Shown here in pieces: positions 18,060-53,842 of a stretch of 64,000 nt of DNA. The stretch lies in NCBI GenBank assembly GCA_023380935.1, contig JAMCST010000011.1, positions 62,001-126,000 on the forward strand, read 5' to 3'. Under the pieces are notes generated by a model. That model worked only from the letters and a program-made list of their open reading frames with translations. It was not told the DNA's origin and ran no database searches. The position numbers and the translations under genes are program-made. The stretch comes from Patescibacteria group bacterium. GTDB taxonomy: Bacteria; Patescibacteriota; Microgenomatia; UBA1406; GWC2-37-13. Numbering within the stretch: position 1 is the first letter of the stretch; every line of letters begins with the position of its first letter.

Positions 18060-18377
18060 CTAAATGATGCCGTTTCCCAGGCCGAAGATCAGCGCCACCA
18101 GCTTGACCAACAGATAGGAAACCAGCAGCAAGACAAAACCGATGATCCCGGCAGTGATTTTGGCCTGGGCCGACTTGATTTTATCCGCCGCCCCCTGGGA
18201 GGTCAAAAAATCATAACCGCCCCACACAATGATCAGAAACAACACGCCGGCGGCCAGCGGATAGATAAAAGTCACCAGACGGTTAACCACGTCGCCAAGC
18301 GTATTCAAGCCGCTACCCAACGGACCGGTAATAATTTGACCGTTAATGTTCAGTTGCTGGACTAAGATTCTGGTCAT
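18060..18377 (-). CDS. TrbC/VirB2-like (T4SS pilin family) membrane protein
   Basis: This 105-residue protein has two transmembrane helices separated by a short polar loop with TSQGAADKIKSAQAKITAG. The pattern hydrophobic-GG-ASG/QG-x-EKIKKAQ-hydrophobic is shared with 27524-28894 (C-terminus), 45071-45352 and 45355-45723. The family is widespread in CPR bacteria and compared with VirB2/TrbC conjugative pilins. I start at ATG 18377, which overlaps the upstream stop as ATGA and implies coupling. It ends the minus-strand operon that starts with the Clp-like gene. Confidence 0.7.
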   Translation of the reverse strand: MTRILVQQLNINGQIITGPLGSGLNTLGDVVNRLVTFIYPLAAGVLFLIIVWGGYDFLTSQGAADKIKSAQAKITAGIIGFVLLLVSYLLVKLVALIFGLGNGII

Positions 18378-19051
18378 CGTCTCGGTTTTGCCAAACTGGT
18401 AAAAATCAACCAAAGGGCGGCGTTAATCACCACCGATAACAGCAAATAACCGTTAATCTGGGCGGTTACCTGTTCGATTATCTGCCAACGTTCTCTGGTG
18501 ACTAGACCGCCAAGGTCAATCCCCAATATGTAAATAATACCAAAAACCAGCAGGACAACGGGAACGATATAAATCAGGTCGATCAGGTCCTGCTTTGAAG
18601 AAAACATCGTCGACGATACCGTATAGATCACATAACCCATCATCAGGGTCATCCACCACTGCGGCAACGGGAACAAATGCAGCAGCGCCAGCCACCAGAA
18701 AAATCCCACACCGGCCAAGATCGGCGCCACTCCGACCAAAATACCTCGGACAAAGTCCTTTTTTTCGTACAACACCCGTCCTAGTCTGATATAGTTTTTT
18801 TCCCACTCCGGCAGAATCCTTACTTCCCGGACCCGCAGCATCAATACCGTAGCCATGAGAAAGTGGGCAAACTCGTGGAGAATGGTACCGGGCAAATAGA
18901 GCAACGAAACTACCACGAACACTTTTTTTTCTCCGGTCAGAACGCGCCGCAAAAAGATAAATAACGCGTTGGTCGTCCGGCGTGACACTAAGTAAAGACC
19001 GACAATCAGGCAGAAAAATCCGATCACCTGGTAACGGGACAGATCGATCAT
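18374..19051 (-). CDS. Polytopic membrane protein with HEFAH metalloprotease-like motif
   Basis: This 225-residue integral membrane protein has about five or six helices. LLYLPGTILHEFAHFLMATV carries an HE-x-x-H zinc-binding motif in a membrane helix, as in M50/site-2-protease-like enzymes; SSKQDLIDLIYIVP later in the chain may supply the third ligand (Asp). The classic NPDG motif is not seen, so assignment to M50 is tentative. It overlaps both neighbours by ATGA and lies between a Pro/Thr-rich anchor protein and a pilin-like gene, so it may process a surface protein. Confidence 0.6.
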   Translation of the reverse strand: MIDLSRYQVIGFFCLIVGLYLVSRRTTNALFIFLRRVLTGEKKVFVVVSLLYLPGTILHEFAHFLMATVLMLRVREVRILPEWEKNYIRLGRVLYEKKDFVRGILVGVAPILAGVGFFWWLALLHLFPLPQWWMTLMMGYVIYTVSSTMFSSKQDLIDLIYIVPVVLLVFGIIYILGIDLGGLVTRERWQIIEQVTAQINGYLLLSVVINAALWLIFTSLAKPRR

Positions 19052-19422
19052 GGCGTCACCGAAGGGGCTAACGTGGGCGATGCCGAAGCCGGGGTCACCG
19101 TGGCCAAAGGCGGAACGATGGTGGTTACCAGTCCCGGCGCGGTGCTGGCTTCACCGGTCGCAGACGGACTGGTGATCGGCATCGGTATGGCGGTCGGCAT
19201 TTCCGTCGGACTGACCGGCGCCGGCGTGACGATGGCCGGAACGGCGTTGGTGGTCGACTGGCGCAGTTTATTCTGAATCAGCAAAAACAGCATCACCGCC
19301 AGTACGGCCGCCGTAATCGTGGCAATCACCAGTAGGACAACGTTGTTCCCACCCTCTTTAACTGGTGCGGCGGCTGGGCGTTCCTGAAACCGGGTTAGGT
19401 CAAGCGGGGTAAAGTTGTTCAT
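19048..19422 (-). CDS. Single-pass membrane protein with Pro/Thr/Ser-rich outer segment
   Basis: This 124-residue protein has a short basic/polar N-terminus, one strong transmembrane helix (VVLLVIATITAAVLAVMLFLLI), then about 75 residues almost only of Pro, Thr, Ser, Ala and Val to the C-terminus. It resembles a cell-wall-spanning stalk. ATG 19422 is preferred over an in-frame TTG at 19437 that overlaps the Clp-like gene. It is coupled to the HEFAH protein by an ATGA overlap. No enzyme domain is visible. Confidence 0.6.
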   Translation of the reverse strand: MNNFTPLDLTRFQERPAAAPVKEGGNNVVLLVIATITAAVLAVMLFLLIQNKLRQSTTNAVPAIVTPAPVSPTEMPTAIPMPITSPSATGEASTAPGLVTTIVPPLATVTPASASPTLAPSVTP

Positions 19423-19426
19423 GGTA

Positions 19427-22400
19427 TTAGTTGACAATTTTTTTCGCCTGGGCCGCCGGTGCCTCTGAATCTGAACCGGATGAGCTGGGTGAGGACGGTG
19501 GATTAATCTGATCTTCCGGTGTTTTTTTGGGTTCGACCACCGTTACGGCACGGGACACGCATTTCGGGCAGATGATGGTGGCATTGGGATAAACCTTGGT
19601 ACTGAACACCGTCTGGCACTGACGGCATTGGTATTGTTTGGTCTCCACGGTTTGAGATGGGCTTTTGTCCACGATCACTAGCCGTTCGACGTTAAAGACA
19701 AAGCCGTCACCCTGGAAATCTACCGTTACCTGGTCGCCGGCCGCCATTTTTTTCTCAATGATCAGGCTGGAAATCGGGTTCTCGACCAGTTTCTGAATCG
19801 CCCGCCGCAACGGCCGGGCGCCGAACACCGGATCAAACCCGGCCCGGACAATTTCTTTGAGGGCGGCCTCGGAATAACTGAAGCCCATGTCCTGTTCTTC
19901 GAGCGCTTTTTGCACTGACTTCAGTTGCAGTTTGACGATCGCCTTCATCTGACTAAAGCGCAACGGCTCGAACAGGATTACTTCGTCAAACCGGTTGATC
20001 AATTCGGGCCGGAAGAACTTGTGCAGTTCGGCCATCACCTTGGTGCGCAACTGAACAAACTGTTTTTTCTGGACTTCGTCATCCACCCGCTGTTTTTCCT
20101 GGATCTGTTTTTCCAACGGGAAATCCTGGCCAAAGTACTGCTGGATCGGTTTCATTAACCACTGATTGGTCTTGGCCTCACGGTACCAGATGGTATCGGC
20201 CACCACGACGAACTCGATACCCGCCGGCGAAAAAGCGTGAATGTCCCAGTAGGCGGTGGGAAAGTTGCCGCCGGCCACGGCGCTGTCCTTAAAGTAGTCC
20301 TTTAACAAACCGGTCTGCCAGTTTTTCCCGTTCATCTCCCGCACCCAATACCGGTCCTTGTGGGTGACGATCTCCTTGTCGTCGGGACTAAAGGCGTGGG
20401 TTTTAAGCATGGCGGTGGGTAATTGTTCGTCAGGCGCGTCCGGAAGCGCATTGATTACCACGTTGTCTTTGAATAGATTAACCAACGTCGCGGTTTTCCA
20501 GGTTTTGCCGGTGGTGGAGTTGCGCATGTAAGCCGTTTTGCCCTTGGTGATCATCTCGACGCCGCTGGCGGAAATGGCGTGGGTGTCAAATCCGTGGATG
20601 GGAAAATCAATCTTTGTCCCAACCGCATCCGCCTCGATTTCCTGGCCGGAAAAGTAGTCAAGCAGCATCTTTTCGTTCCATTTGCCCGTCTGTCCGTCTT
20701 TTTCAAAAATCTTATTGCCGATCGTCAGCATCTCTCTTCCCCGCGGAGAAAAGGTATAGGTGGAAAGTACCGGCGGTTCCTCGATCTCGCTCTTTCCCGC
20801 TTTCATCAGCTCCTGTTGGATGATGGGTGATCCGATGTTCGAAGTACAGATCACCACGGTGTTCTTGAAGGAAATCGTATGCCCTTTATTGTCGGTTAAA
20901 CGACCGTCGTCAAGAATCTGCAGCAAAATATTGAAAATGTCAGGGTGGGCCTTTTCGATTTCGTCAAACAACACCACCGAGTAGGGCTTGCGCCGCACCG
21001 CCTCGGTCAGCTTTCCCCCTTCTTCATAGCCGACATAGCCCGGCGGCGCGCCCAGCAGTTTGGCCACCTCGTGTTTTTCCATGTATTCGGTCATGTCAAA
21101 CCTCACCATTGCCTCTTCCTGGCCAAACAAAATATCGGCTAAGGTTTTGGCCAGTTCGGTTTTTCCGGTACCGGTCGGTCCCAAAAATACGAAGCTGCCG
21201 ATCGGACGCTGGGTCGATTTGAGGCCGGCCCGTCCGCGACGGATCGCCTGGGACACCGCCGCCACCGCCTCGTCCTGGCCGATCAGGCGTCGGTGCATGA
21301 TTTCCTCGAGATGCGATAGCTTTTCCATTTCCGATCCGCTGATCTTGGCGATGGGAATGCCGGTCCAGCGGGAAACGATCTCCTTGATGATCTCGCCGCT
21401 CACGGCCGTGGTCGTCTGGGATTTTCTCAGGTTGTATTCCTCTTTTTTATCGTTCAGTTGGGTCTGGATGTCGGCGATCTTTGATCGTAAAATTCTCGCC
21501 CTGACCTGATCGGTGGACTTTTCGCTTTCCTTGAGCTCCTGATTTAATTCGGCTACCCGCGTTTCCAACGACCGGATCTCTTCAGGTAACGAAATCATCG
21601 GCAAGCGCACCGCCGAAGCCGCCTCGTCAATCAAATCCACCGCCTTGTCCGGCAAAAACCGGTCACCCACATAACGTTTGGAAAGACGCACGGCGGCGTC
21701 GATCGCCTCGTCGGGAATCTGCACCCGGTGAAACGCCTCGTATTTACCCTTAATCGCCTTGAGCATCTTGATGGCTTGTTCTTCGTTGGGCTCGGGAACG
21801 ATCACCGGCTGAAAGCGCCGCTCCAGGGCCGGATCTTTTTCGATGTATTTTCGGTATTCGGTCAGGGTGGTGGCGCCGATCACCTGCATCTCGCCGCGGG
21901 ACAGGGCCGGCTTGAGAAAGTTGGCCGCGTCGCTGGTGCCTTCGTTGCCTCCCGCTCCCATGATGTTGTGGATCTCGTCGATGAACAGTATGATTTGGCC
22001 TTTGCTCGCTTTTACCTCTTCAATCAGGTCTTTCATCCGCTCTTCAAAATCGCCGCGGTGCGAGGCGCCGGCCAACAGGCTCATCAGATCCAGCGACAAA
22101 ATCCGTCGGTTGAGCAACGGCTCCGGCACCTGTTTGGCAACAATCTTCTCCGCCAACCCTTCAACAATGGCGGTTTTTCCCACCCCGGCCTCGCCGACCA
22201 AAGCGGGATTGTTCTTGGTGCGTCTTGACAAAATATGGATGACGCGCTCGATCGTGTCGTAACGCTCCACCACCGGATCAAGCAACCCCTGGGCGGCTTT
22301 GGCCGTCATGTCAATCGTATATTGCTCCAATGCGCTCTTCTTGGCCTGACGTCCTTGAGTGGCGTCCTGCTCTTCCAATCCTTCCTTTTTCCCCAGAATT

Positions 22401-23143
22401 TTCTTGTTCAGTTCCTCTTTTTTCAAACCCAGTTTGGCCAAAATCCGGGCGCCGGCTCCTTCACCTTCTTCGTAAAGCGCCAGCAAAATGTGCTCCGGGG
22501 AAATAAACTCAAAACCCAACTTACGCGCCACTACCAGTGAGTTATCGATGATCCGTTTGACGCGCGGCGCCATCTGGGGCAACTGAAGACGACTGCCTTT
22601 TTTATAGACTTTGGCCAGTTCCTCCTCGACCAGTTGCGGCTGCAGTTTAAGATCAACCAGCAGTTTATAGATCTCCCCATCGGAGAGCAACCCGTGCAAC
22701 AGATGCTCGCTGTCGATCAACTCGCTCTGGAGCTCCTTTGCCTTGGTCTGGGCCGATAAAAACACCCGATTGGACCGCTGGGTCAAATGGGTCATCAGGT
22801 CAAGATCGCTGCGTTTTTTGTCATTGAGATTGGAGTTGAGACTGGCGCCGGTTGGTCTATCCGATGCGTTTGGCGGCCGGGTGGCCGGAGCAGACGCGGT
22901 AGGCGCTTTGGCCTCGGTGGGAACGGGGCGACCCGGCGGTGTACCAATTCCGCTGTAGGCCGATCCGCTGCTCGGATGACCAATGCCGCTATATGATTGA
23001 GAATGGTCGACCGGAACGGCAAAACCGCTGTCGGCTACGCCGCTGGCAGAAGGAGGAGCGGTCGCGGGCGGCGGAATCACCTGGGTTGTTTTTACTGTTG
23101 ATTGATTGCTGGATTTTTTAATAAAATCAAAGAAACCGGCCAT
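19427..23143 (-). CDS. ClpC/ClpB-like AAA+ unfoldase with four-repeat insertion in D2
   Basis: This 1238-residue HSP100 protein has, in order: an approximately 105-residue Pro/Ser/Gly-rich disordered N-terminus; a double Clp-N domain; AAA-1 with GEAGVGKT near residue 316, Walker [10 protein letters not shown] and the R-finger region LERRFQ; a short coiled-coil M-domain; AAA-2 with GPTGTGKT near 655 and [13 protein letters not shown]; sensor-1 TSNIG at 767-771. Between this and FFRPELINR (about 1043-1051) ClpC proteins have about 40 residues including the ClpP-docking VGF/IGL loop. Here there are about 270, with four tandem (Y/H)A-F-S-P-x-G-x-E repeats (about 795-1008) and no docking loop. After the small domain follow a C4 zinc ribbon (CRQC...CPKC) and a Ser/Pro-rich tail. 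It heads a surface-protein operon, suggesting a role in secretion rather than ClpP proteolysis. Confidence 0.9.
20100..20775 (-). repeat. Four tandem protein repeats inserted in the Clp-like D2 domain
   Basis: The repeats start near 20761, 20584, 20400 and 20240, i.e. 53-61 codons each. Their first lines are [36 protein letters not shown] and [12 protein letters not shown]; each then has an aromatic strand ([46 protein letters not shown]) and ends L-x-x-Y/L-F. The F-S-P-x-G-x-E-x-V rhythm recalls beta-propeller (WD40-like) blades. Confidence 0.85.
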
Positions 23144-23181: not shown

Positions 23182-24465
23182 ATGATAAAGAAATTGATCG
23201 CGGTGGCGGCGGTGGTTTTATCTCTAATTCTCATTGTCCTAATTATTTTTCGGCTGCGACCGACCGGCGTTGCCCAGCCGGTAATCCAAGTTGGCAATAA
23301 CTCGCCCACCCTGTTTCCGATCAGCATCAAACCGACGGCTGACGCCGCGGCGGCCAACAATGGTCTGTTAGACTACCGCCAGCTTACCTTGTTGAACAGC
23401 AACCAAACCGTCACGCTCAAACAGCTGCAACCAAACCTGCCTTATGTTTCGTCTGACTTCAGCGTCGAGTACTCGCCGTTGCTTAACCAGTACGTCATCA
23501 CCAAACACACCAACCAGGCGGACGCACAGATCTCGCTTTGGGCCCAACAACACAACCTGTCAGGTCTGATCAGCGACCAGAATCTGTTTCCGGTGGAAAC
23601 GACTCAAACTGTCGCCGACAAAGAAAATATCTACCAAAAAAACCGCGAGCTGACGCTATTGTCAACCCCGACGGCTGTCCCCACCACCGCCGCGCTTGAC
23701 AACACCGACGAAGGCGCCAGTTTGCAGGAGCTGTTTGCCAGCTTGTTTAATATTGATGTGTCCGGTTTGACCGGGACGGAAACGGTTATTCCAACTCCAA
23801 TCCCTTCACCTGCGCCTACCACGATCCCTACTCAATCTTCGGTTGCCGCCACCGCCCCGTTGCCGCTTCCGACCCTCACGCCGACCGCTGTTCCCAGTCT
23901 GATCCCCACCGCATCGGCTGGCGGCGCCAGTTCATTGACGGCACTGATGAACGAAGCGGCGCAAAAGGTCGGCGTGCCGGAAAAGATTTTGGAAGCGGTG
24001 ATCTCGATCGAAAACCCGTCCGCCTTTAACCTTTCGCCGGAAGCGATTGCCCGCCAGTCAACTCCGGGCAGCGGACTTACCTGTCCGATTGCCAGCTGTT
24101 CCGAACAAGGCCCGATGCAGATGACCACCGGGCGCGACAGCAACGGCCGCACCGACTGCCCCCAGTGCTGCTGGAACGGCCAGTGCACCGGCTACTGCCC
24201 CAATGCCTGGAGCATCTACGGGCGCAGCGTCAATACCTACGGCGGCTATACGCACACGCCCAATCCCTGTGACCTGCGCGACAATATCTACGCCGCCGCC
24301 CTGAAGTTAAAGACCGACAGCACTGCCACCGGCGCCACCAGCTGGACCCAGGCCGAGGTCAACCGGGCCGGGCTGCGCTATCACGGCAACTGCACCTACC
24401 CGTATGCCAGACTGGGCAACCGCACCTACTGTGATTATTTGTGGTGGTACTACCAAACTCAATGA
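23182..24465 (+). CDS. Membrane-anchored lytic transglycosylase-like (VirB1-type) protein
   Basis: This 427-residue protein has an N-terminal membrane anchor ([19 protein letters not shown]), an alpha/beta module at about 65-150 with [15 protein letters not shown], an [11 protein letters not shown] segment, a long Thr/Pro/Ser linker, and a C-terminal lysozyme-like domain. In that domain [15 protein letters not shown] gives the catalytic-type Glu and GPMQMT and [11 protein letters not shown] follow the SLT pattern; many Cys suggest disulfides outside the cell. It would cut peptidoglycan glycan strands to let an apparatus through. It overlaps the next gene by ATGA and shares its N-terminal module. 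Confidence 0.75.
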
Positions 24466-25685
24466 AAAAAATCGTCCTGGCCGCTTTGATTGTTTTAGCA
24501 GTCATCTTGGCTATTGTCGTGATCATCGGCCGGCTCCGGTCGATCCAACGCCCCGTCACTGATACAACCGTTGTGCCCACCGTTACTGCCATCCCGCTGC
24601 CCTCCACCCGTTTTCCTACCAGCAGCACGACCGCAGACACAACCGCCCAATACCGACAACTCCCGGTCATTACTCCGATAGTCACCGACAACTTTGACTA
24701 CCAGCAATCCACCGTACCGGTCAGGCCGCCGCCCAATCTTGACGATCTGAAAAACGGCGCGGTTTACGATACCGACAATTTGAAGATTAGTTACTCGTCG
24801 ACCTTGGACAAATATGTCTTGACCAGAAAAACCTATTTGGCCCAAAAAGAGATTGACGAATGGACCCGGGCCACTGACCTGATCGGCCAGATCAACAACC
24901 CGGCGCTCTTTGTTGATCAGCCAAGCACCATATCTGCAACCGTCGCGCCTTCATCATCACCCACCTCGTCCTCGAGTTCGACAACCGCCAGCACCGCCAC
25001 TGATGCCACCGACCTGACCGAGCTGTTTCGTTCGCTCTTTTCCATTCCCATCGGCGGCAGTACCGCTGACAATCTGATTCCCACCCTGGCCAACCCGGCG
25101 CCGTTGTCCAGTACCGCGGCCGCCATCACCCCGGTCAAAACCATTGACAACCTGGTATATTTTGCCCAGTGCAACGGCCAGTATGACCAGTATCCCCTGC
25201 CGCAGGGTTGTACGCTGTGCCAGTCCGGCTGCGGCCCGACCACCGCCACCATGGTGATCGCTTCATACGCTCAACCCGGCTTTGTTCCTCCCACCACCGT
25301 TGATTATTATCGTCAGCAACAGTTTACTCTCGGCTGCGCCGGATCAAAGGTCAACGACTTGAAACAAACCCTAAACGATCACGGCGTCGCCACGACTCCA
25401 TATTTGCTTTTTAACGGCGCCCGCGCCAACCAGATTGTTTCCACCCTGAAACAGTATCTGGCCGACGGCTGGACTCTGGTAACAGTCGGGGAATATGCCG
25501 ACAACAGCCCCAGCTGCGGCAAATGCGGCCATTTTTTTTGGGTGATTGACGTGGACGCCAACGACAACGTTTGGGCGCTGGATCCGTTTTACGGCCGTTT
25601 CCAAAACCCGCAGCCGTTCAACGAAAACAGCCTTTACCCTTATCCGAAGTACGTGGCCGCCTTTGGGGTGAAGGCGAACCGTTGA
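24462..25685 (+). CDS. Membrane-anchored C39-like cysteine peptidase
   Basis: This 407-residue protein, starting at ATG 24462 (overlapping the previous stop as ATGA), has an N-terminal helix (IVLAALIVLAVILAIVVII), a module with YSSTLDKYVLTRKT that parallels the previous protein, LTELFRSLFSI, a Ser/Thr/Ala linker, and a C-terminal papain-like domain of the C39 type. The catalytic set is Cys in QSGCGPTTATMV, His in KCGHFFWVIDVD and Asp in WALDPFYG. It would act outside the membrane on peptide cross-links or on an exported protein. It pairs with the transglycosylase-like gene. Confidence 0.78.
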   Translation: MKKIVLAALIVLAVILAIVVIIGRLRSIQRPVTDTTVVPTVTAIPLPSTRFPTSSTTADTTAQYRQLPVITPIVTDNFDYQQSTVPVRPPPNLDDLKNGAVYDTDNLKISYSSTLDKYVLTRKTYLAQKEIDEWTRATDLIGQINNPALFVDQPSTISATVAPSSSPTSSSSSTTASTATDATDLTELFRSLFSIPIGGSTADNLIPTLANPAPLSSTAAAITPVKTIDNLVYFAQCNGQYDQYPLPQGCTLCQSGCGPTTATMVIASYAQPGFVPPTTVDYYRQQQFTLGCAGSKVNDLKQTLNDHGVATTPYLLFNGARANQIVSTLKQYLADGWTLVTVGEYADNSPSCGKCGHFFWVIDVDANDNVWALDPFYGRFQNPQPFNENSLYPYPKYVAAFGVKANR

Positions 25686-25716: not shown

Positions 25717-27507
25717 ATGCCTGTGTTTAATAATATCGCCTTACTCAAACCGTTTATTGCCCGTGGCTTCAGAATCGCTAAAAAGGCGATCATTGTCCTG
25801 ATCGCCTATTTCGTGATCATTAATCTGTTCTTCTATTTCATCAATAAGGACAAGATACAGCTACATACCTATGACCCGGTACAGCGCAACCGGGAAAAGA
25901 TCTACGCGACCATTAACGATCCCGAACTCAACTCGTCTGAAATGGGGAAAATCGACATTGCCCTGTACCGCTATACCAACTGCTGGTTAATCGGAGAGGC
26001 CTGCACCGACAACCCGGCCGACGGCAATGCCAACGTCAACCACAGCGTCACCGGCTTTCTTAGCAGCCTGCTGGTGCTACCGTTTACCCAGCCGCCGGCC
26101 TCGGGCATCCATTGGGCGATCAGCGGTCTGCAAAACGCCGGCTTTATCCCCAAAACCTATGCGGCCGAGGGGGTGGGGTTTGCCGCGCTGGGTGGCTTCA
26201 GGCCGATCTGGACTCTATTCCGTAACTTCGTGATGATGATCATGGTGCTGGTTGTGGTAACGATTGGGTTTATGATCATGTTCCGCTCCAAGATCAACGC
26301 ACAGACGGTTATCTCGATCGAAAATTCCCTGCCCAAGATCGTCATTGCCTTGTTACTGATTACCTTCTCCTTTGCCATTGCCGGTTTCATGATCGACCTG
26401 ATGTATATTTGTATGGGACTGGTCGTGACGCTGTTAAAGACCAACAACCAGTTCACCACCCTGGAACCGCAGGACTTTTTACGGGGCAATGTTAACCTCT
26501 GGCAGTACTTATCGCCGTTTGGCAACAATTTTGGCACCATTATTGATGTTGCAAACAGCCTATATGGAATTCTGCCTTCTGCGATTCAAACCGCCATTAA
26601 TACCGTAATTTATTCTGTTTTGGGGAATCTGGTGATTGGGATGGCCGGCGGTTTGGCGTCGCGCAAACTACCGGCATTAAAGTCAGCAGCATCATACCTT
26701 AACCCGTTAAGCTTGGGTCAAAAAATCCTTAATTACGCCGTAACTAAAGCCAGCTCACTAAGCAAGCTTAGTTTTATTGCTAAAGTGGGGGCAGGAACCG
26801 GCACTGTCGTAGTCAGCTTAGCCTTAGGGGTTATTCTTATTGCCTTAACATATCTAGTTGATTCACTAATTCTCCCTCACGCTGGAAGATTAATCGTGGT
26901 GGTTTTGCTACTTCTCTCATTGTTATTTATTTATTTTCGGATTCTTTTCATGCTTCTTTCCACTTATTTAAGCACGATTCTGCTGGTGATTTTTTCGCCG
27001 CTGATCCTGGCTCTGGAGGCAGTTCCGGGCAAAAACTCGTTTTCCAGCTGGATTAAAAATCTGGCCCTGAATTTATTGACTTTCCCGGCTTTTGTGCTGT
27101 TATTGATGGTCGCGCAGATTATCATCAGTATGGACACTTCCCAAGCCGGCATGGCCTGGAAACCGCCGTTTTTGTTTAATTTTGATGCCGGCGCTTTTCA
27201 AACGATTGTCGGCGGGGTTTTGCTATTTGCCATCCCTGATTTAATTAAAGGACTAAAAGAGGCTACCGGAGTCAAACCGATGCCGCTGAACATTGGCGTT
27301 GGCACCATGTTTACTGGAATCACATCAACTCTAGGTGGAGGAATGGGTGTGCTTGGTCAGTTTAGCACCATTAATTTGGGCCTAAGCGCTTTAGGAGTTA
27401 AGGACGGCTTAGGGGGAATACTGGACAAGAATGTTTTTAAAAGAGTAAAAGGCTACGCGGCTGGATTAGGAGGACCCAAAAAACCTACCCAATCGACTAA
27501 CGACTAA
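25717..27507 (+). CDS. VirB6/TrbL-like polytopic membrane protein
   Basis: This 596-residue protein has an N-terminal helix, a polar extracytoplasmic part (about residues 45-140), then at least six hydrophobic helices in blocks: FVMMIMVLVVVTIGFMIMF, IVIALLLITFSFAIAGFMI, VVSLALGVILIALTYLV, LIVVVLLLLSLLFIYFRIL. This is the layout of the VirB6/TrbL inner-membrane channel subunit of type IV secretion systems as annotated in CPR genomes. The C-terminus is soluble and glycine-rich. The middle (about 26540-26980) is more AT-rich than the ends. No VirB4/VirD4 ATPase lies in the window. Confidence 0.65.
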   Translation: MPVFNNIALLKPFIARGFRIAKKAIIVLIAYFVIINLFFYFINKDKIQLHTYDPVQRNREKIYATINDPELNSSEMGKIDIALYRYTNCWLIGEACTDNPADGNANVNHSVTGFLSSLLVLPFTQPPASGIHWAISGLQNAGFIPKTYAAEGVGFAALGGFRPIWTLFRNFVMMIMVLVVVTIGFMIMFRSKINAQTVISIENSLPKIVIALLLITFSFAIAGFMIDLMYICMGLVVTLLKTNNQFTTLEPQDFLRGNVNLWQYLSPFGNNFGTIIDVANSLYGILPSAIQTAINTVIYSVLGNLVIGMAGGLASRKLPALKSAASYLNPLSLGQKILNYAVTKASSLSKLSFIAKVGAGTGTVVVSLALGVILIALTYLVDSLILPHAGRLIVVVLLLLSLLFIYFRILFMLLSTYLSTILLVIFSPLILALEAVPGKNSFSSWIKNLALNLLTFPAFVLLLMVAQIIISMDTSQAGMAWKPPFLFNFDAGAFQTIVGGVLLFAIPDLIKGLKEATGVKPMPLNIGVGTMFTGITSTLGGGMGVLGQFSTINLGLSALGVKDGLGGILDKNVFKRVKGYAAGLGGPKKPTQSTND

Positions 27508-27523
27508 CACATCTTAATCGGAC

Positions 27524-28894
27524 TTAACCAAATCCCGGAATTCCAAGAATACTGACTCCGATCAGACGAAGAATAAAGACCGAGAAAATGATCAGAATCA
27601 ATCCGGTAATACAGGCAGTTAGATTTTGTTGGGCTTTTTTGATCTTTTCCGCGTTGCCGGCTGATGTCTGGATGGAGATGGCAGAGTAAATGATACAGAG
27701 CAAAGAAATGATGCCGGCCAGACCAATGGCTTTGGGAAAAATGTCCTCGCTGATCAGCGCCTGCCAGCTTCGGAAATGGATACAACCGATCGCGCTCCAA
27801 TAACCTTTTTCTTCTACCGCACACTTAACACAATTATTGTATTCGGTCGCTTGCCCCAAATAATCATTACAAAGAGCGGCGTTGCGATAGTCGTTAACGC
27901 AGTTGGCGTACTCAACCGGATCGGTATACTTGTTACATTTTGCGTTCTGTCTATCGTTTTCATCATAAACACACTTACATTGCTGGGAAGAACAAACGTT
28001 GTCCGGATTATCCGGCATGCTTCCCACAAGACAGGCATTCATAATCTGGTTATCCTTCTGGGCGGTTGCGGGATTAACTCTTTCACTAATGCTTTTTAGT
28101 ACACCGGCAATTTTGTCCGCCAAGCTTGTCGAAGTATTATCGCCGGCAACACTGGCCGTATCCATTAAATCAGAGGCTGGACTAGAACTGTCGACACAAC
28201 AACAATTTCTACTATTACCCACGCCTTCAGGATCGCCACAGGTCACACCGATTTCGTTGCGCGGTTGACATGCGGCGGAAATATTATCATTAACATCCCT
28301 GGTTTCGCTGCAGACCGTGTCGGAACTACATTCTTCTTTTAGTTGAAGAGTGTTGTTTCCAGCACAGGTATAAACTTTCCCGTTATTACAATAGCTTTCT
28401 CCCTGACGATAGTACAATCCCTTATCGATACAGGCGTTTTTTAATAGTCCTTGGCTCTGGAATTCGTTGCATGGCAAGCGTGCTTTCACGGCTTCCTCTT
28501 CGTTTAAACAGCATTTGATACTACCCACATAACCCCGAATGTCACTGATGGTATGACAAACATATCCATAACCATTAGGGCAGTTAGCTAACACATCAAG
28601 ATCCAAAAAAGCGCTCTTGTCAACACAGCCTTCTTTATAAGTAGCGGTCGAGTAGTTACTACACTGCAGATTTAGTTTACGCGCATCATCTTCGGTGGCA
28701 CAACACTGATTGCCACCTGGCAGACTGCATTCCCAATAATAGTCGGTCGGGCAACGCCCAAGATCGGCAACATTGGCCCCCCACAGTGTTTTTAATTTAC
28801 AACCCGTCGCCGCCGAAACACGAGCAGGAAAAACAAACACCAACAAACCAATCACCACTAACAAAATAGGAATCAAACGCCAGAAACGCTGCAT
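27524..28894 (-). CDS. Cys-rich secreted protein fused to a T4SS pilin-like C-terminus
   Basis: This 456-residue protein has a signal/anchor helix ending FVFPARVSAATG, about 330 residues with dozens of Cys in repeated CC and CxnC spacings (GNQCCATEDD, SIKCCLNEEE, NCCCVDSSS), and a C-terminal two-helix unit, LAGIISLLCIIYSAISIQTS then GNAEKIKKAQQNLTACITGL. That unit is the pilin-like module of 18060-18377. The Cys-rich part must be disulfide-bonded outside the cell. The architecture suggests a pilus or cell-surface subunit with a large exposed domain. It is convergent with the VirB6/TrbL-like gene, 16 nt apart. Confidence 0.7.
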   Translation of the reverse strand: MQRFWRLIPILLVVIGLLVFVFPARVSAATGCKLKTLWGANVADLGRCPTDYYWECSLPGGNQCCATEDDARKLNLQCSNYSTATYKEGCVDKSAFLDLDVLANCPNGYGYVCHTISDIRGYVGSIKCCLNEEEAVKARLPCNEFQSQGLLKNACIDKGLYYRQGESYCNNGKVYTCAGNNTLQLKEECSSDTVCSETRDVNDNISAACQPRNEIGVTCGDPEGVGNSRNCCCVDSSSPASDLMDTASVAGDNTSTSLADKIAGVLKSISERVNPATAQKDNQIMNACLVGSMPDNPDNVCSSQQCKCVYDENDRQNAKCNKYTDPVEYANCVNDYRNAALCNDYLGQATEYNNCVKCAVEEKGYWSAIGCIHFRSWQALISEDIFPKAIGLAGIISLLCIIYSAISIQTSAGNAEKIKKAQQNLTACITGLILIIFSVFILRLIGVSILGIPGFG

Positions 28895-28901
28895 AATATT
28901 A

Positions 28902-28931
28902 ATGATAGCAGATTCTACTTTTTCTTTCCAA
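28902..28931 (-). promoter_or_regulatory. Promoter of the Cys-rich pilin-fusion gene
   Basis: Minus strand TTGGAA (28931-28926), 18-nt spacer, TATCAT (28907-28902), then 7 nt to the ATG at 28894. The promoter overlaps the 3' end of the 1180-residue gene and would give a leaderless mRNA. Confidence 0.5.
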
Positions 28932-31900
28932 ATGCTTCTTTAAATGCCTTTTGGATCCAAAAGGCAAGCAAAATCACCAAGGCAATCGGGATATATCGAT
29001 TGATCATATCAAAAATTACAGCCCGGGCGTCGCCACCGTACTCTTGTCTTAATTGTTCCGACCACCATTTGTAATCAGCCTTTCTTCTCCGAAACGGAAG
29101 AGGAATTTTAATCGCTTTTTTAAATAGCTGTTTTTCTTTACCGCCGATCTTAATTTTGTTAGGAATGGTTAAATGATCCGGCAAATTAAACTCAATTTCT
29201 TTTATTAACGGTAATTTTATTTTTACCGGCCATGGTTCATAGGTGGGCGTTTTTTGCAATTCGTAAGGATGCACCGGTAAAATATGCCAGCTTTCCAAGG
29301 CGGTGCAAAAAAGATCGATTGTCCGGCTGTCCCACTCCCAAACCGTCTGTCCCCGACCGGCAAACTCGGCGGCCAAAGAGTTGAGTTTGTTGGTGCCAAA
29401 AATTCCCCCATAGGGCTTGGAAAATGCATCCGCCTTAAAAAAGGCAACAGTCAAGGCCGCCATGTGGTGAGCTAAACGATGGGCCGCTTCCGGACCATGC
29501 ATGCTTTCCACCATCTTTTTTGCGGTATCAATTAGTTTGACGATCTCCGAAAAATTCTGCTTTCCGTCGCGTGATGCTTCCACTAGGGTTGGTAACAATT
29601 TGGAGATTGATCCGGCCACGTTTTTCTCGGTTGCGGCAATCTCGCCGATTGCCCGGGCAATGGTTCTGTCACCGCTGGCTGCATGGGCCAACAGACTGCG
29701 CTCCAGTTCCTCAACCGCAATGGCAAACGGAAATGGCGTTTTTTTGGCGTCGTCTTGGTACGTTCTTGCAAATTCTTCAAGATAAGCCTTCTCCTTAATA
29801 TACTTTTTATTTTCATCATAGACTTTAAGAGCTCTCCCGATGCGTTCTGTATCCCCACCGACAAGTTTCTTTAAATAATCGTTAAGTTTTTCTCTTGTTA
29901 ATTCATACTGGTTTCCAAGATCGATATTTTCCATTTTCTTACCTTGCTTGGTGGCTTGCTGAATCGCCTTGGTTATCTCATCTCTCAACATGGTTTCGGC
30001 AATACAGATATCTTTAATGGCTGTATCATACTGAACCAGGCCCTGATCTCCGGTAAAACCGCCGTTTTTCCTGATAATTTCCCATAACCGTTCCCGGCCG
30101 GAAACGGTTTTGGTCGTTTCCATACGCAAAAACTTGGTGGGAATTCTTTGGTCAATTGCCCGTGCCAGCGTATCGAAAAAGAAAGTTTTGTAAGAACCAG
30201 CTAGGTCTTTATTTTTCTCCAACGCGGCGAATTTTTCTTTGATCGTATCGTTAGTTGCCTGGTGATCAAAATAACGTCTATAAATGTGGGTAAACAACTC
30301 TCTACGATTATTTTCTTGGACCTTGTCGTCCTTGTTATAAAAATTCGTCGTCGCAATAGTATCGGGACTGGTGATAAAATCTTTCATTACCTCAACCCCG
30401 ATATTCTCAATGGCTTTCCACGATTTAACCACGTCAAGATTCCCTCCCGGTTTTACCAAATGATGCTCATACGAATTAAAGTCGCGCCAACCGGCCCGAG
30501 AGTAGATACTCCCCACTCTGGCCGGATTGATCCAGTCGATAAACCGCATGCGTCCATTTTTCCAGTCATCGGCCGACTTGCCGCTGTTAAACGAGTTAAC
30601 GCCGTCTTTCATGTAATCACGGAGCTTGCTATGATCCCAGGCTGACAACTGACGCAGGTCCTTGCCTTCTACCGGCAAAAACAGCAGGTTGCCCACCAAC
30701 AGGCTTTCCGAAGAAAAACGCAGATTCTCGTGCCCCATTTGGTTAAAAACCTTAAACATCTGGGCATCCCGCTTGGTATAGGAAGCAAAGTTCGGTGTGC
30801 CATCCGGGTTTTTCGGCGGGTCGGCAATCGCACCCAGTTCAAGTGCGCGCATCGACAAACTATAATTGTCGCCGCGCGCCATGGCTAGCGCCCGCCTGAT
30901 TCTTTGCCTAGCCTCTTGAGGGTCTTCACGATACAGATCTTTGTATATCTTCTCAAGGGACTCCAATGTTTCGGTTTCCACCGGCGTCAGTTTAGTTTCC
31001 GAATCTAACGTCTCCATGGTCGGCTGGTGGATCCAGTTGTACTTGGCAAAGTTCGCCTCCATAAACTTATCCTCCAGGCGCGAGGCAGTCAGCATTTTAT
31101 CGGCATCAACCAAATGCAATGCCTCGTCATGCGATTTTTGTCCCATCATTTGGTCGGCATATTGCTCCAGTCGCCCGTAAAAACCATGCTCGTCGGGCGG
31201 CTGGTGAGACAAGGCACCAGCGTTGTGCAAAAAACGATGCGCTTCAATGTTGGTGGCCACGCTGTTAACCACTCCCAAAAAATACTCGTTAAAATCAACC
31301 TGCTTTGGCTCGGTAAAACAAGTATAACGGCGTTTAACTACTTCAAACTTACCCTTACCGCTTTCTACATCTTTATATTTTGGTTCAGCCGAAACCAGGG
31401 TGTCATAGACAACCTGCTTTTCGTTGTGCCACTGGATTTTATTAACGACCGAGTCTTGGGAAAAGGTCGCGTGCATAATACCGGATAGTTTTCTCTCAAA
31501 CGCCGTCCGCAAGTAGGTGATACCATAAACCCCTTGTTTTTGTTCAATCATTTCGACAAACTCGCCCGGCGCTGATTCATCAACATCCTGATAAAGTTTA
31601 CCGACCAGCATGGTAATGCGGCGTTTCAGGTCGGTGGAAAACTCTGCGTTGACTTCCTTATCAGATAGGTGATGAGGTTCTTTTTGTTGTCGAGCAAATT
31701 CCTTATGTTCAGTCTCAACATACTCCTCAAAGGCTTTAGGTGAGGCAAGCGCACTAATCAGTTTTCGGTCTTTTTCCATCGGGTATTTTTCCCAGAACCA
31801 CGACCTGTCCTGAAACTCACTCATCCCGGCAGTGGCTCCGGTTCTTTCCAGACCGAACTCACGATTAATGCGGGGGGCGTCCCAACCGTTTTCCACGGCG

Positions 31901-32457
31901 GTCATGACCATTGCCTGTTGCAGTTCTCCGTAGAGCGACGGCGACAGTTGCGACAACAACGCCAACTGATTAAACTCGGCCACCAAACCTTCTACGTTAT
32001 TTATCTCGCCGTTAACCAGCCTATATATCAGATGGTGTAAATAAGGAGCATTCTGTTCGTTAATATTGCTTAGGGAGATGCTGGTGCTAAGTTTTTCCAG
32101 AGTTGACTGGGCCAGCTGTTTTAGCTCGGCCGGCGCCGGTTGGCCGTTGGGAAGCAGGTCTGGCAACGGCGCTTTCCCCTCCTGGACGGCCAATAGGGTC
32201 CTGATCACCGCGGTACGGGTTGTGTGCGCCTTGGCCTTATCGCTGTTTTTGTCGTTGACGTCGCCTGCGAACTGATCCGGAACTTTACCTTGACTGATGA
32301 TGCTTAACTCGATTTTGGCCCGCGTTTCTCCGGCGGCCTGAACGGCATTGTTGAGCATTTCGGCCGCTTTTTGCGCCGTAAAATCAGCCGACCGCACTTC
32401 GGCCTTTAAGACGTCGATCTCGGTGGGCGTTCCGTTGCCGGGAATCGGCTCTGTCAT
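28915..32457 (-). CDS. 1180-residue tail-anchored protein of unknown function
   Basis: I do not recognise this protein. It is long, highly charged, mostly helical by composition (many Lys/Glu/Leu/Ala heptad-like stretches), without signal peptide and without P-loop or other nucleotide motifs. The only clear hydrophobic helix is at the very end (YIPIALVILLAFWIQKAF), followed by a basic tail, so it is probably anchored by its C-terminus with the bulk in the cytoplasm. It lies between jag and the Cys-rich pilin fusion, 20 nt from the latter, so a structural role with the surface apparatus is possible. Confidence 0.8.
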   Translation of the reverse strand: MTEPIPGNGTPTEIDVLKAEVRSADFTAQKAAEMLNNAVQAAGETRAKIELSIISQGKVPDQFAGDVNDKNSDKAKAHTTRTAVIRTLLAVQEGKAPLPDLLPNGQPAPAELKQLAQSTLEKLSTSISLSNINEQNAPYLHHLIYRLVNGEINNVEGLVAEFNQLALLSQLSPSLYGELQQAMVMTAVENGWDAPRINREFGLERTGATAGMSEFQDRSWFWEKYPMEKDRKLISALASPKAFEEYVETEHKEFARQQKEPHHLSDKEVNAEFSTDLKRRITMLVGKLYQDVDESAPGEFVEMIEQKQGVYGITYLRTAFERKLSGIMHATFSQDSVVNKIQWHNEKQVVYDTLVSAEPKYKDVESGKGKFEVVKRRYTCFTEPKQVDFNEYFLGVVNSVATNIEAHRFLHNAGALSHQPPDEHGFYGRLEQYADQMMGQKSHDEALHLVDADKMLTASRLEDKFMEANFAKYNWIHQPTMETLDSETKLTPVETETLESLEKIYKDLYREDPQEARQRIRRALAMARGDNYSLSMRALELGAIADPPKNPDGTPNFASYTKRDAQMFKVFNQMGHENLRFSSESLLVGNLLFLPVEGKDLRQLSAWDHSKLRDYMKDGVNSFNSGKSADDWKNGRMRFIDWINPARVGSIYSRAGWRDFNSYEHHLVKPGGNLDVVKSWKAIENIGVEVMKDFITSPDTIATTNFYNKDDKVQENNRRELFTHIYRRYFDHQATNDTIKEKFAALEKNKDLAGSYKTFFFDTLARAIDQRIPTKFLRMETTKTVSGRERLWEIIRKNGGFTGDQGLVQYDTAIKDICIAETMLRDEITKAIQQATKQGKKMENIDLGNQYELTREKLNDYLKKLVGGDTERIGRALKVYDENKKYIKEKAYLEEFARTYQDDAKKTPFPFAIAVEELERSLLAHAASGDRTIARAIGEIAATEKNVAGSISKLLPTLVEASRDGKQNFSEIVKLIDTAKKMVESMHGPEAAHRLAHHMAALTVAFFKADAFSKPYGGIFGTNKLNSLAAEFAGRGQTVWEWDSRTIDLFCTALESWHILPVHPYELQKTPTYEPWPVKIKLPLIKEIEFNLPDHLTIPNKIKIGGKEKQLFKKAIKIPLPFRRRKADYKWWSEQLRQEYGGDARAVIFDMINRYIPIALVILLAFWIQKAFKEAFGKKK

Positions 32458-44293: not shown

Positions 44294-45007
44294 TCAGGCA
44301 CCAAAACGGCGTTGACGACCGAGGTAGTCGGCAATACATTGATCAAAATCGGCGGCGGTGAAGTCGGGAAATAACTTGTCGACAAACGCGTATTCGCTGT
44401 ACTGTGACTGCCATAACATAAAGCCTGAAGTGCGCTGCTGGGCGCTGGTGCGGATAATCAGATCCGGTTCGGGTTGGGGCAGGTCTTTGGTGTCCAAGTA
44501 ACGATCCAGACCGTTCTTCTCCAAATCACGCCCCCCTAGGTTGCCCTTTTCCAGTTTACTGATTGCCCTGATGACCTCGTCCCGGCCGCCGTAGTCCAGG
44601 GCGATTGCCAGGTAATGGCGCCGGAAGGCCCGGGTTTTTTCCTCGGCGTCGCTGATCTTTTTTTTCAGCGTCGGCGGCAGCCGGTCTTTTCTGCCCAGGT
44701 GGACAATCCGCACCTGGTCGACCAACGCCTCACGCAGGTGAAGACTGATGGCCCGCTCAAATAAACCCATGAGGTGGTTAACCTCGCCGGCGGCCCGCTT
44801 CCAGTTTTCGGTGGAAAAGGCCCAGTAGGTAAGTATCTTAATTCCCATCCGGCGGGCGTGCTTGGCAAGCTGGTTGGCCCGGTCATAGCCGCGCTGATGT
44901 CCGACCAGGGCCGGTAAATGATGCTTTTTGGCCCAGCGCCGGTTGCCGTCGGGAATCACGGCCACGTGAACCGGCAAACGCACGTCGCCCTTGGTTGATT
45001 TTTCCAT
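44294..45007 (-). CDS. uppS: Isoprenyl (undecaprenyl) diphosphate synthase, cis-prenyltransferase
   Basis: This 237-residue enzyme condenses IPP onto farnesyl/geranyl diphosphate to make the C50-C55 lipid carrier. The catalytic Asp is in VIPDGNRRWAKKH; bacterial enzymes mostly read MDGNGRWA, while IPDGNRRWA is commoner in archaea. Other blocks are YWAFSTENWKR, ALDYGGRDE and the substrate loop DLIIRTSAQQR, where the usual Gly-Glu is Ala-Gln. It lies on the same strand just beyond the isoprenoid operon, separated by two plus-strand pilin-like genes. Confidence 0.92.
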   Translation of the reverse strand: MEKSTKGDVRLPVHVAVIPDGNRRWAKKHHLPALVGHQRGYDRANQLAKHARRMGIKILTYWAFSTENWKRAAGEVNHLMGLFERAISLHLREALVDQVRIVHLGRKDRLPPTLKKKISDAEEKTRAFRRHYLAIALDYGGRDEVIRAISKLEKGNLGGRDLEKNGLDRYLDTKDLPQPEPDLIIRTSAQQRTSGFMLWQSQYSEYAFVDKLFPDFTAADFDQCIADYLGRQRRFGA

Positions 45008-45035
45008 TAAGGATGATTGAATTGCTGTATTTAAG

Positions 45036-45064
45036 TTGACATTATAGCTAATTTCTCATAAACT
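45036..45064 (+). promoter_or_regulatory. Promoter of the two pilin-like genes
   Basis: TTGACA (45036-45041), 17-nt spacer, TAAACT (45059-45064), ATG at 45071 after 6 nt; expected leaderless. Confidence 0.65.
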
Positions 45065-45070
45065 GGAAAT

Positions 45071-45352
45071 ATGCAAATTAACCCGACCACCTTTGCTCCG
45101 GCTCGGTTTGCCAACCTTGCCTCGATCGCCAACCTGATCATTCCCATCCTTATGGTCGGCGCGGCCATTATTTTTTTAGTAATGGTGATCCGCGCCGCTT
45201 TTTCTTATCTGATGGCCAGCGGCAATCCGGAAAACATCAAAAAAGCCCAAAAAGCCCTGAGCTTTGCCGTGGTCGGACTGGTACTGGTAATTTTGGCCTA
45301 TACTATAATCAAGGTGATTGCTTTTGTATTTAATATTTCCCTGTTCTTTTAA
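45071..45352 (+). CDS. TrbC/VirB2-like (T4SS pilin family) membrane protein
   Basis: This 93-residue protein has two long transmembrane helices, LIIPILMVGAAIIFLVMVI and FAVVGLVLVILAYTIIKVIA, joined by SGNPENIKKAQKALS, the loop signature shared with the other pilin-like proteins of the window. Its promoter lies 6 nt upstream. The next gene of the same family starts 2 nt after the stop. Role by family: subunit of a pilus or secretion-like envelope structure; not proven in CPR. Confidence 0.72.
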   Translation: MQINPTTFAPARFANLASIANLIIPILMVGAAIIFLVMVIRAAFSYLMASGNPENIKKAQKALSFAVVGLVLVILAYTIIKVIAFVFNISLFF

Positions 45353-45354
45353 CG

Positions 45355-45723
45355 ATGAAGTTGGCCGCAGACATCAAGGATATTTTTGGCACGGTTAACC
45401 CGCCGGCCGGCACGCCAGGCGGCGGCGATCCGATTGCCGGCATCGGCAAGGTGTTTTCGGTAGCGATCCAGTTTGTCCTCATCCTCGCCGCCGTCCTGGT
45501 ATTGGTCCAGCTGGTGGTGGCGGCCATCGAATGGATCGTTTCCAGCGGCGAAAAGGAAAAGCTGCTCAAGGCCCAGAACAAAATCATGAACGCGGTGGTC
45601 GGACTGCTCTTTATTTTTGTTGCTTTTACCGTGTTTTCGGTAATCGTTAACGTTGTGCTGGGCGGAAAAATCATCCAGTGCACTCCGGACGGCTGCAGCT
45701 TTGACCTGCCGCAGTTAAAATAA
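45355..45723 (+). CDS. TrbC/VirB2-like (T4SS pilin family) membrane protein
   Basis: This 122-residue protein has an N-terminal polar Gly/Pro-rich part, then two helices, FVLILAAVLVLVQLVVAAIE and AVVGLLFIFVAFTVFSVIV, with SSGEKEKLLKAQNKI between them. A short C-terminal tail has two Cys (CTPDGCSFD), which suggests a disulfide outside. It is the partner of 45071-45352. The end overlaps the convergent mvaD by 9 nt. Confidence 0.72.
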   Translation: MKLAADIKDIFGTVNPPAGTPGGGDPIAGIGKVFSVAIQFVLILAAVLVLVQLVVAAIEWIVSSGEKEKLLKAQNKIMNAVVGLLFIFVAFTVFSVIVNVVLGGKIIQCTPDGCSFDLPQLK

Positions 45724-46689
45724 GTGGTGATCCGTCAACCTGGTTCCTCCGGTTGGATAGTTAACTACATAGTTGATCAAACCGATTTGTTTTAGTTTGG
45801 TTTTGACGGCAATTTGCCCTGTCGGTTGACAGATGAGGTGGACGCTCGCCCCGGCGTCGATGGTAAAATACACCGGCAAACCCTCCTGGCGCCACCGCCA
45901 CACCGCCTGAATGATCTCCACGGTTTTGGGAGACCAGTAAAACAACGGCGGGGCCGAGGTCATCATCACCGTGTGCAGTTCCAGCGCCTCGGTCTCTATC
46001 AACTCACCAAAACGAGGGAAATCGCGCGTTTTGATATACGATTTAAGCCGGGTGTTTTTATTGTCCATACCGGCCAGCCGGGTGCGAAAAAACGGACTGG
46101 TCCAAACCAAACGCTGGCCGGCGCTGGTGGGGATCTTCTTGGCACCGGCGCCTACCATTACCGCAATATCCAACAACCGCCAGTGATCGGCCGGAAAAAG
46201 CGTTTCGGCGTACGAGGTGGCGCTCGATCTGCCTTTTTTCCACTCGACAAATCCGGCCGGGATCGAACGGCAAGCCGAACCCGATCCGAGACGGGCCATG
46301 ATCGATAGTTCTTTTTCCGATAACATCAGCCCGGCCGCGCTGGTGGCGGCCACGGTCAACGCGGCAAAACCCGAGGCCGAAGACGCCAGGCCGGCCGATT
46401 TGTCAAAGTTGTTCACCGACTCCACCCGGGCAAAGCTGGCCGATCCGGATCGATGACGAACCTGGTCAAGAAAACCCACCACCCGCTCGGCTTCTCGTCG
46501 TTCGTTGGTACCGTCGATCACCACCGTGTCTTGGCGATACTGTTGGGAAAACTCCACTGTCGTGGTAGTAAACAGGTGACTGAGGTTCATGGAAATGCTG
46601 CTATTAGTTGGCAAACGCAGCTTTTCGTCACGCTTCCCCCAGTATTTGATAAAGGCGATGTTCGATGGTGCAATCGCAGTGGTTTTCAC
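45715..46689 (-). CDS. mvaD: Diphosphomevalonate decarboxylase
   Basis: This GHMP-fold enzyme (324 residues) converts mevalonate 5-diphosphate to isopentenyl diphosphate with ATP. Signatures: APSNIAFIKYWGKRD at the start, LPTNSSISMNL, the ATP loop KSAGLASSASGFAAL, GSGSACRSIPAGFVEW and FTIDAGASVHL with the catalytic Asp. The start is GTG at 46689, overlapping the upstream stop as GTGA. It is the last gene of the combined isoprenoid operon. Some family members decarboxylate mevalonate monophosphate instead, which matters because no ordinary phosphomevalonate kinase is evident. Confidence 0.92.
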   Translation of the reverse strand: MKTTAIAPSNIAFIKYWGKRDEKLRLPTNSSISMNLSHLFTTTTVEFSQQYRQDTVVIDGTNERREAERVVGFLDQVRHRSGSASFARVESVNNFDKSAGLASSASGFAALTVAATSAAGLMLSEKELSIMARLGSGSACRSIPAGFVEWKKGRSSATSYAETLFPADHWRLLDIAVMVGAGAKKIPTSAGQRLVWTSPFFRTRLAGMDNKNTRLKSYIKTRDFPRFGELIETEALELHTVMMTSAPPLFYWSPKTVEIIQAVWRWRQEGLPVYFTIDAGASVHLICQPTGQIAVKTKLKQIGLINYVVNYPTGGTRLTDHHLF

Positions 46690-47186
46690 GCAATGAGTTT
46701 AAGGATTTTTAGCGTGTTAATGCTACCCGGAGTGATTTTGTCGGCCATTTTTCCCAACTGGTCCGGAAGGAAAAAATCAACCGACTCTACCTCGGTTTTA
46801 TCCAACCGGTACTCGCCCTGATATTGACAGGTGTAGATGGAGGTCATCTCGCCTTCCCGGTGATTACGAAAAATGGTTTTGGTGACAAACTTGAGCGGCA
46901 GCGTTACCCCGATTTCTTCCTTAGCTTCACGCAAGGCTGCCTGGCGGTAGGTTTCCCCCGGTTTGACATGACCGGCTACGGACAAACCATAATAGCCGGG
47001 ATAGGTGTCCTTCAATCGGCTACGTTTCTGCAGCATTACCCGTTTTTGTTTGTCGAAGATTACGATATCCACCGCCCGGTGAATCAGGTCGGGCCGGTGA
47101 TGACAGAGGTCACGGTCAAAGTATCCGATAAGTTTGTCGGCCTCGTCCACCACGACAAACGGTTCTTTTTTATTATCTTTGGGCAT
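46686..47186 (-). CDS. IDI-like NUDIX protein
   Basis: This 166-residue NUDIX protein has a complete box (GHVKPGETYRQAALREAK then EEIGV). The context, HRAVDIVIFDKQKRVMLQKR, the WPG-like YPGYYGLSVAGH and NHREGEMTSIYTCQY, resembles type I isopentenyl-diphosphate isomerase. In true IDI-1 the residue before Gly-His is the catalytic Cys (VCGH); here it is Ala (VAGH). So it may be an IDI-like NUDIX hydrolase of the YfcD group or an altered isomerase. Its place between mevalonate kinase and mvaD, coupled to mvaD by GTGA, favours a role in isoprenoid metabolism. Confidence 0.75.
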   Translation of the reverse strand: MPKDNKKEPFVVVDEADKLIGYFDRDLCHHRPDLIHRAVDIVIFDKQKRVMLQKRSRLKDTYPGYYGLSVAGHVKPGETYRQAALREAKEEIGVTLPLKFVTKTIFRNHREGEMTSIYTCQYQGEYRLDKTEVESVDFFLPDQLGKMADKITPGSINTLKILKLIA

Positions 47187-47188
47187 GG

Positions 47189-49047: not shown

Positions 49048-49058
49048 AGTTAGGTATT

Positions 49059-52191: not shown

Positions 52192-52192
52192 A

Positions 52193-52648: not shown

Positions 52649-52663
52649 GTTGTTTCGGGTCGG

Positions 52664-53833: not shown

Positions 53834-53842
53834 AAATGTGAC

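Follow-up and report, generated by a model that had tools for sequence, protein, structure and literature searches.

We found that a 64,000-nucleotide stretch of DNA from a Patescibacteria group bacterium (hereafter the window) encodes, as one open reading frame on its minus strand (19427-23143), a ClpC-class double-AAA+ Hsp100 unfoldase of 1238 amino acids (P0001), in which the second ATPase module (D2) is interrupted by a 270-residue insert that we confidently interpret, from its predicted structure, as a four-bladed β-propeller. The reading that we favor, and that we hold to be somewhat likelier true than false, is that the protein is a ClpC-derived unfoldase which works independently of ClpP and whose exit face would bear six propellers as binding modules. 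In Clp unfoldases, the face turned toward ClpP is regarded as a surface for docking the protease. In these uncultured Microgenomates bacteria, whose lineage is without ClpP, a conserved propeller is built into that very site and has been kept across several families, which makes it testable to what use an unfoldase puts its exit face once the protease is gone. In the open literature searched, we found no account of a Clp ATPase with a β-propeller inside it.

Pfam recognized Clp_N, two AAA domains, AAA_lid_9, and ClpB_D2-small in the 1238-residue protein. Its first 115 residues (22799-23143, minus strand, as are all coordinates within this gene) form a low-complexity and, from their composition, presumably disordered extension, the length of which varies among orthologs from 0 to 292 residues with an identity of about 30%, and the Clp_N domain follows at residues 116-252 (22388-22798; PF02861, E 2e-18). 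The D1 module, delimited by PF00004 and its motifs (residues 271-452; 21788-22333), contains Walker A GEAGVGKT at residue 317 and Walker B LFIDE at residue 386, while its pore loop 1 reads SHRG (residues 361-364; 22052-22063), with the tyrosine of KYRG changed to histidine. This histidine (SHRG or KHRG) is shared by almost every member of the order and of families f25, f4, f21, f24, f31, and f18, whether or not the propeller is present; tyrosine or phenylalanine stands there in f15, f20, and f32, as compared with KYRG in solved ClpC. The first part of the D2 core (residues 606-772; 20828-21328; positions 1-135 of PF07724) holds the Walker [13 protein letters not shown] pore loop, Walker B VLFDE, and sensor-1 TSN. 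The insert interrupts the AAA_2 match at model position 135/136, and the remainder of D2 (PF07724 positions 136-166) lies, together with the small subdomain (PF10431, E 3.6e-24), at residues 1043-1145 (19709-20017). Both ATPase modules possess catalytic motifs. Near the C-terminus, a CxxC-x(n)-CxxC ribbon (residues 1165-1200; 19544-19651) is kept in most orthologs. The disordered N-terminus and the C-terminal zinc ribbon described in the initial annotation are both present in the protein, and orthologs with and without the propeller have them in common.

As delimited by motif boundaries and alignment, the insert covers residues 773-1042 (20018-20827), being preceded by TSNIGS at residues 767-772 and followed by [11 protein letters not shown] (FFRPELINR) from residue 1043. 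The initial annotation had described a 270-residue insert with four repeats between sensor-1 and the RPE motif of D2, and both its coordinates and its description proved accurate; in propeller-less orthologs, the same stretch usually measures about 26-64 residues as against 270. The repeats start at residues 794, 853, 914, and 967. When the four repeat columns, taken over 35 orthologs, were compared profile against profile, every pair scored a probability of 97-99% with an E-value between 1e-10 and 3e-17, hence the repeats are not due to chance. Their number is exactly four throughout the order, and the alignment indicated that longer inserts have longer linkers. The AlphaFold2 model obtained with 35 orthologous inserts (pLDDT 92.7, pTM 0.87) consists of four predicted units with four β-strands and a short helix apiece, in line with the earlier description of the repeats as propeller-like. 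The alignment, the model, and the profile comparison together place blade 1 at residues 794-832 (20648-20764), blade 2 at residues 853-892 (20468-20587), after which comes a loop that is nearly invariant, [16 protein letters not shown], blade 3 at residues 914-951 (20291-20404), and blade 4 at residues 967-1005 (20129-20245). A second model, comprising D2 and the insert (pLDDT 88.1, pTM 0.82), showed a complete D2 with the propeller set on a helical stalk, predicted to be a continuous 34-residue helix (residues 1010-1043; 20015-20116). This model matched NBD2 of ClpB with a TM-score of 0.92 to the target, and also ClpC in ClpC-ClpP complexes.

No known domain in Pfam, NCBIfam, or PDB sequences matched the insert, and the Pfam hemopexin family matched neither the insert from the window nor any of the 35 members. 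When the insert model was compared with the PDB using Foldseek, hemopexin domains came out on top (E 2e-8, probability 1.00, about 10% identity), the best targets being serum hemopexin, MMPs, vitronectin, and plant albumins, with a TM-score to target of about 0.7 for the isolated domains. The predicted insert resembles these proteins in having four blades of four strands, whereas it differs from them in being presumably cytosolic, in lying inside an AAA+ module, and in its lack of a Pfam hemopexin match. We do not claim common descent of the two, since sequence methods gave no connection between the insert and hemopexin.

The absence of a docking tripeptide, also reported in the initial annotation, was borne out: the pattern [ILVAM]G[FLY] does not occur within the insert from the window, and the inserts of 8 of 34 relatives contain scattered, unconserved tripeptides, which argues against an IGF or VGF loop hidden there. 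ClpP had no match in the window's own genome (85% complete). Among the 374 genomes sampled from the class, canonical ClpP (E below 1e-40) was found in 11, none of which has a propeller-bearing Clp. Three propeller-Clp genomes (G069, G077, and G107) encode ClpP-like proteins that are divergent (E about 1e-18 to 1e-20), with frames of 188-199 residues in the first two; L036, L037, and L038 hold divergent ClpP-like proteins from three genomes of the order that have no canonical ClpP. At the docking site, IGF or LGF is found in the ClpC copies of those genomes of the class that encode ClpP (L236 and L237): in G099, the only one of them for which two ClpC-class genes were examined, the copy with an LGF loop is a separate one, and G119 has IGF. 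The proposed independence from ClpP is supported by the absence of ClpP from the window's own genome, of canonical ClpP from all propeller-Clp genomes, and of the tripeptide from the insert. The further proposal that the propeller replaces the docking loop did not hold, because the propeller-less orthologs have no docking tripeptide either, save for isolated spacer matches elsewhere (VGY in L104, MGL in L233), and to speak of a replaced loop is therefore an overstatement. Loss of the docking loop accompanies loss of ClpP, and gain of the propeller is a different event.

The closest solved chains to a propeller-less ortholog were ClpC of Staphylococcus aureus and Bacillus subtilis (E 4e-236), which align with it end to end through Clp_N, D1, a short middle region, D2, and D2-small. 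Between D1 and D2, its alignment to ClpC 6em8 shows no large gaps, and the D2 fold of ClpC agrees with the model. From these proteins, the Clp from the window is set apart by the lack of the ClpP tripeptide, in place of which stands the 270-residue propeller, by the D1 pore histidine, the disordered N-terminal extension, and the C-terminal zinc ribbon, and by its 85%-complete genome, in which ClpP was not found. According to PMC11006417, the IGL/F motif is missing from stand-alone disaggregases, and the protein is like the Hsp100s ClpB, ClpG, and ClpL in being without this motif and hence without ClpP (PMC11006417). Unlike ClpB and these disaggregases, it has a middle region of ClpC length; it scores below the curated cutoffs for ClpB, ClpG, and ClpK (942.1 bits as against 1232.1 for ClpB, TIGR03346), and its genome encodes a separate ClpB-like protein. 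The kinship with ClpV that had been suggested was not supported: with TIGR03345, the protein scored 732.6, below both the cutoff of 884.95 and its own ClpB score of 942.1, and among solved proteins ClpC comes closest. It shares with ClpV/TssH independence from ClpP and a location near envelope or secretion genes, but its neighbors are T4SS-like rather than T6SS, and no T6SS proteins were present among the neighbors scanned.

Propeller inserts were detected in 47 of the 83 genomes of the order, which is that of Roizmanbacteria and its relatives, i.e. in the window's own genome, in G073 as a reduced reading frame, and in 45 others, which rules out an assembly artifact or a one-off event. Elsewhere in the class, propeller-bearing Clps occur in families f25, f4, and f21, and the named matches (Ca. 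Roizmanbacteria, Woesebacteria, and Gottesmanbacteria) all belong to Microgenomates, while a phylum-wide search of 380 genomes gave two matches only, both from the window's own family. A viral origin was rejected, as no relative lay on a viral contig. Some orthologs, above all those of one large genus, have a short or charged spacer instead of the propeller; in one of them (L102, 8432-11173), a 141-residue Lys/Glu/Asp-rich linker occupies the site. No propeller remnants were found in the short inserts, and one retained repeat in the short insert of L104 is consequently unsupported. On the tree of Clp cores, propeller presence required at least eight changes by parsimony, three of them forced by well-supported branches, and propeller-bearing genes are interspersed among the others, a single clade being rejected (AU test, p 5e-9). 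Pairwise identities of propeller and core are correlated (Mantel rho 0.82, 0 of 2000 permutations), and this agreement of distances favors losses over repeated gains. Propeller and core co-evolve, with several apparent losses, and vertical inheritance with repeated loss of the propeller fits these data best; recombination is a possible source of the interspersed genes. The dN/dS ratio was about 0.13 (L085/L086) and 0.09 (L083/L084) in the two pairs with estimable dS, and the propeller evolves faster than D2 (54% versus 86% identity among orthologs).

Outside intact Clps, the same propeller family was found in secreted proteins of Microgenomates, most of them with dockerin-like domains. Its repeats occur in a GH42-like protein (L241), a pectate-lyase-like protein (L270), a GH2-like protein (L271), and DUF2961 and unnamed secreted proteins (L240 and L273). 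Homology was detected by sequence in both directions, with four blades in the best cases, and a reciprocal profile built from the secreted-protein propellers retrieved the Clp insert from the window at E 9.8e-13. One propeller family is thus common to secreted glycan-active proteins, where a plausible function is an accessory binding role, and to a presumably cytosolic AAA+ machine; the secreted dockerin-bearing proteins differ from the latter in that they are extracellular and have the propeller joined to glycan-active domains rather than built into a Clp. In genome G073, a 352-residue reading frame (L109, 9667-10725) at the syntenic place of the Clp has four intact-looking blades and a degenerate D2 with GPTGPAKT and no Walker B, the N-domain, D1, and D2-small being missing. 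Retention of four blades after loss of the ATPase motifs suggests that the propeller may have a role of its own, although this case could be a decaying gene in one genome.

These observations bear on two other explanations. The propeller might be a near-neutral insertion, tolerated by a permissive loop and without any specific role, as could be expected from its faster evolution (which would fit a neutral or a stabilizing insert), from its apparent loss on several occasions with no other change, and from the charged linkers at the same site in other orthologs, such as that of 141 residues in L102. We consider this very unlikely, given that four blades and the core residues are kept across several families, that an intact fold is predicted, and that the propeller persists in L109 despite decay of the ATPase. 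Alternatively, the propeller could recognize clients with no docking of a partner. Client-recognizing adaptors such as MecA and ClpS serve other Clps, and accessory domains of carbohydrate-active proteins, the kind of protein in which relatives of this propeller are modules, commonly bind ligands. Such an adaptor seems unlikely, because the propeller would lie at the exit of D2, on the other side from client entry, if the geometry deduced from homology holds.

The Clp gene opens a series of overlapping minus-strand genes. The first (19048-19437), whose frame overlaps the end of Clp, encodes a single-TM protein starting with (F/Y)TP(L/I); in 16 of 41 loci, such a protein is the one immediately following Clp, and its conserved start is, by sequence, a possible docking peptide. 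The second (18374-19051), overlapping the preceding frame, encodes a multi-TM HExxH membrane protein that is weakly M50-like (HEFAH motif; E 0.004 to Peptidase_M50B for the protein of a relative). An HExxH gene adjoins Clp in about half of the loci of the order and is the shared neighbor in f25 (five of six loci, the sixth contig holding Clp only). The third (18060-18413) encodes a small T4SS_pilin-like protein (PF18895, 32.7 bits versus a cutoff of 26.6), whose gene follows Clp at a short distance downstream in almost every locus of the order, propeller present or absent; next to the propeller-bearing Clps of f25, f4, and f21, no adjacent pilin was detected. On the other side of Clp lie, on the plus strand, genes for two divergent secreted proteins, one of them weakly C39 peptidase-like (23182-25685), and for a protein with about 10 TM segments (25717-27507), which is VirB6/TrbL-like by topology only and belongs to no Pfam or NCBIfam family. 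These are followed on the minus strand (27524-32457, by synteny) by a 456-residue pilin-domain protein (PF18895 E 4e-4, below the cutoff) and a large membrane-anchored surface protein of 1180 residues. Pfam-annotated neighbors include pilin-like proteins, RecF, a kinase, and others.

One explanation suggested by this neighborhood is a ClpV-like secretion or pilus ATPase, in which the propeller would dock the ring onto a T4SS-like pilin apparatus and the Clp would extract or recycle its subunits. The pilin gene downstream, the multi-TM, secreted wall-active-like, and second pilin-domain proteins nearby, and a VirB4-like ATPase (NF045971) in 18 of the 20 genomes searched are in its favor. Nonetheless, propeller-less orthologs have an identical neighborhood, the propeller-bearing Clps of f25, f4, and f21 have no detected adjacent pilin, the score is under the ClpV cutoff, and virB4, where it shares a contig with Clp, is about 90 kb or more away, with no match (PF19044) in the window's own genome (85% complete), so that we regard this explanation as rather doubtful. 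The term 'Clp' is absent from a 2025 survey of Patescibacteria T4SS (PMC12102498). Within the order, the propeller is associated with neither the HExxH nor the pilin neighbor. Of the link to a pilus or secretion system put forward in the initial annotation, the linkage to the T4SS_pilin gene is real in the order, but the idea that the propeller underlies it was not supported. A connection of Clps of this type to membrane or pilus functions appears plausible from gene order, with the propeller not specifically tied to it. The same gene series could instead point to a replacement protease complex, with propellers in lieu of ClpP-docking loops and substrates passed to the adjoining HExxH membrane protein, whose gene overlaps within the same apparent operon, is the shared neighbor in f25, and stays beside the degenerate gene in L109. 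Within the order, however, that gene is absent from half of the loci with a propeller-bearing Clp and adjoins Clp in half of those without the propeller, and its product has a weak M50B match only, which makes such a complex quite unlikely.

For the ClpP-independent unfoldase that we favor, the following mode of action can be proposed. Substrates would enter via the N-domains and be pulled mainly by D2, since the pore tyrosine of D1 is histidine in this Clp family. Homology suggests that the hexamer would display six propellers on its exit face, as the homologous loop in Clp-ClpP structures points outward beside the D2 exit pore. The propellers would act as a fixed binding module, by which either the ring is docked onto a partner or the emerging chain is held. 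A docking partner would probably be membrane-bound, given the apparently cotranscribed membrane genes. That the propeller has apparently been lost more than once while Clp was kept suggests a tuning or targeting function that the core action of the machine can do without. The data also suggest that substrates are handed to something other than a protease. A more specific version, in which six hemopexin-fold propellers, akin to a binding module of secreted proteins and ringed on the exit face where ClpP docks in the ClpC relatives, would have turned a degradation machine into a delivery machine supplying a membrane or pilus-assembly partner with unfolded proteins, is tentative, and we see it as possible but not probable.

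Two further observations were made in the course of this analysis. At L003 (G000:C14), we noted a 738-residue double-AAA Clp paralog with N-terminal hydrophobic, probably membrane, segments, and paralogs of similar size are encoded in many genomes of the order. Elsewhere in the window (44294-54799), the two isoprenoid routes are represented by closely spaced genes, those of the MEP route (DXR, IspG/GcpE, and IspH/LytB) and one for a mevalonate diphosphate decarboxylase-like protein.
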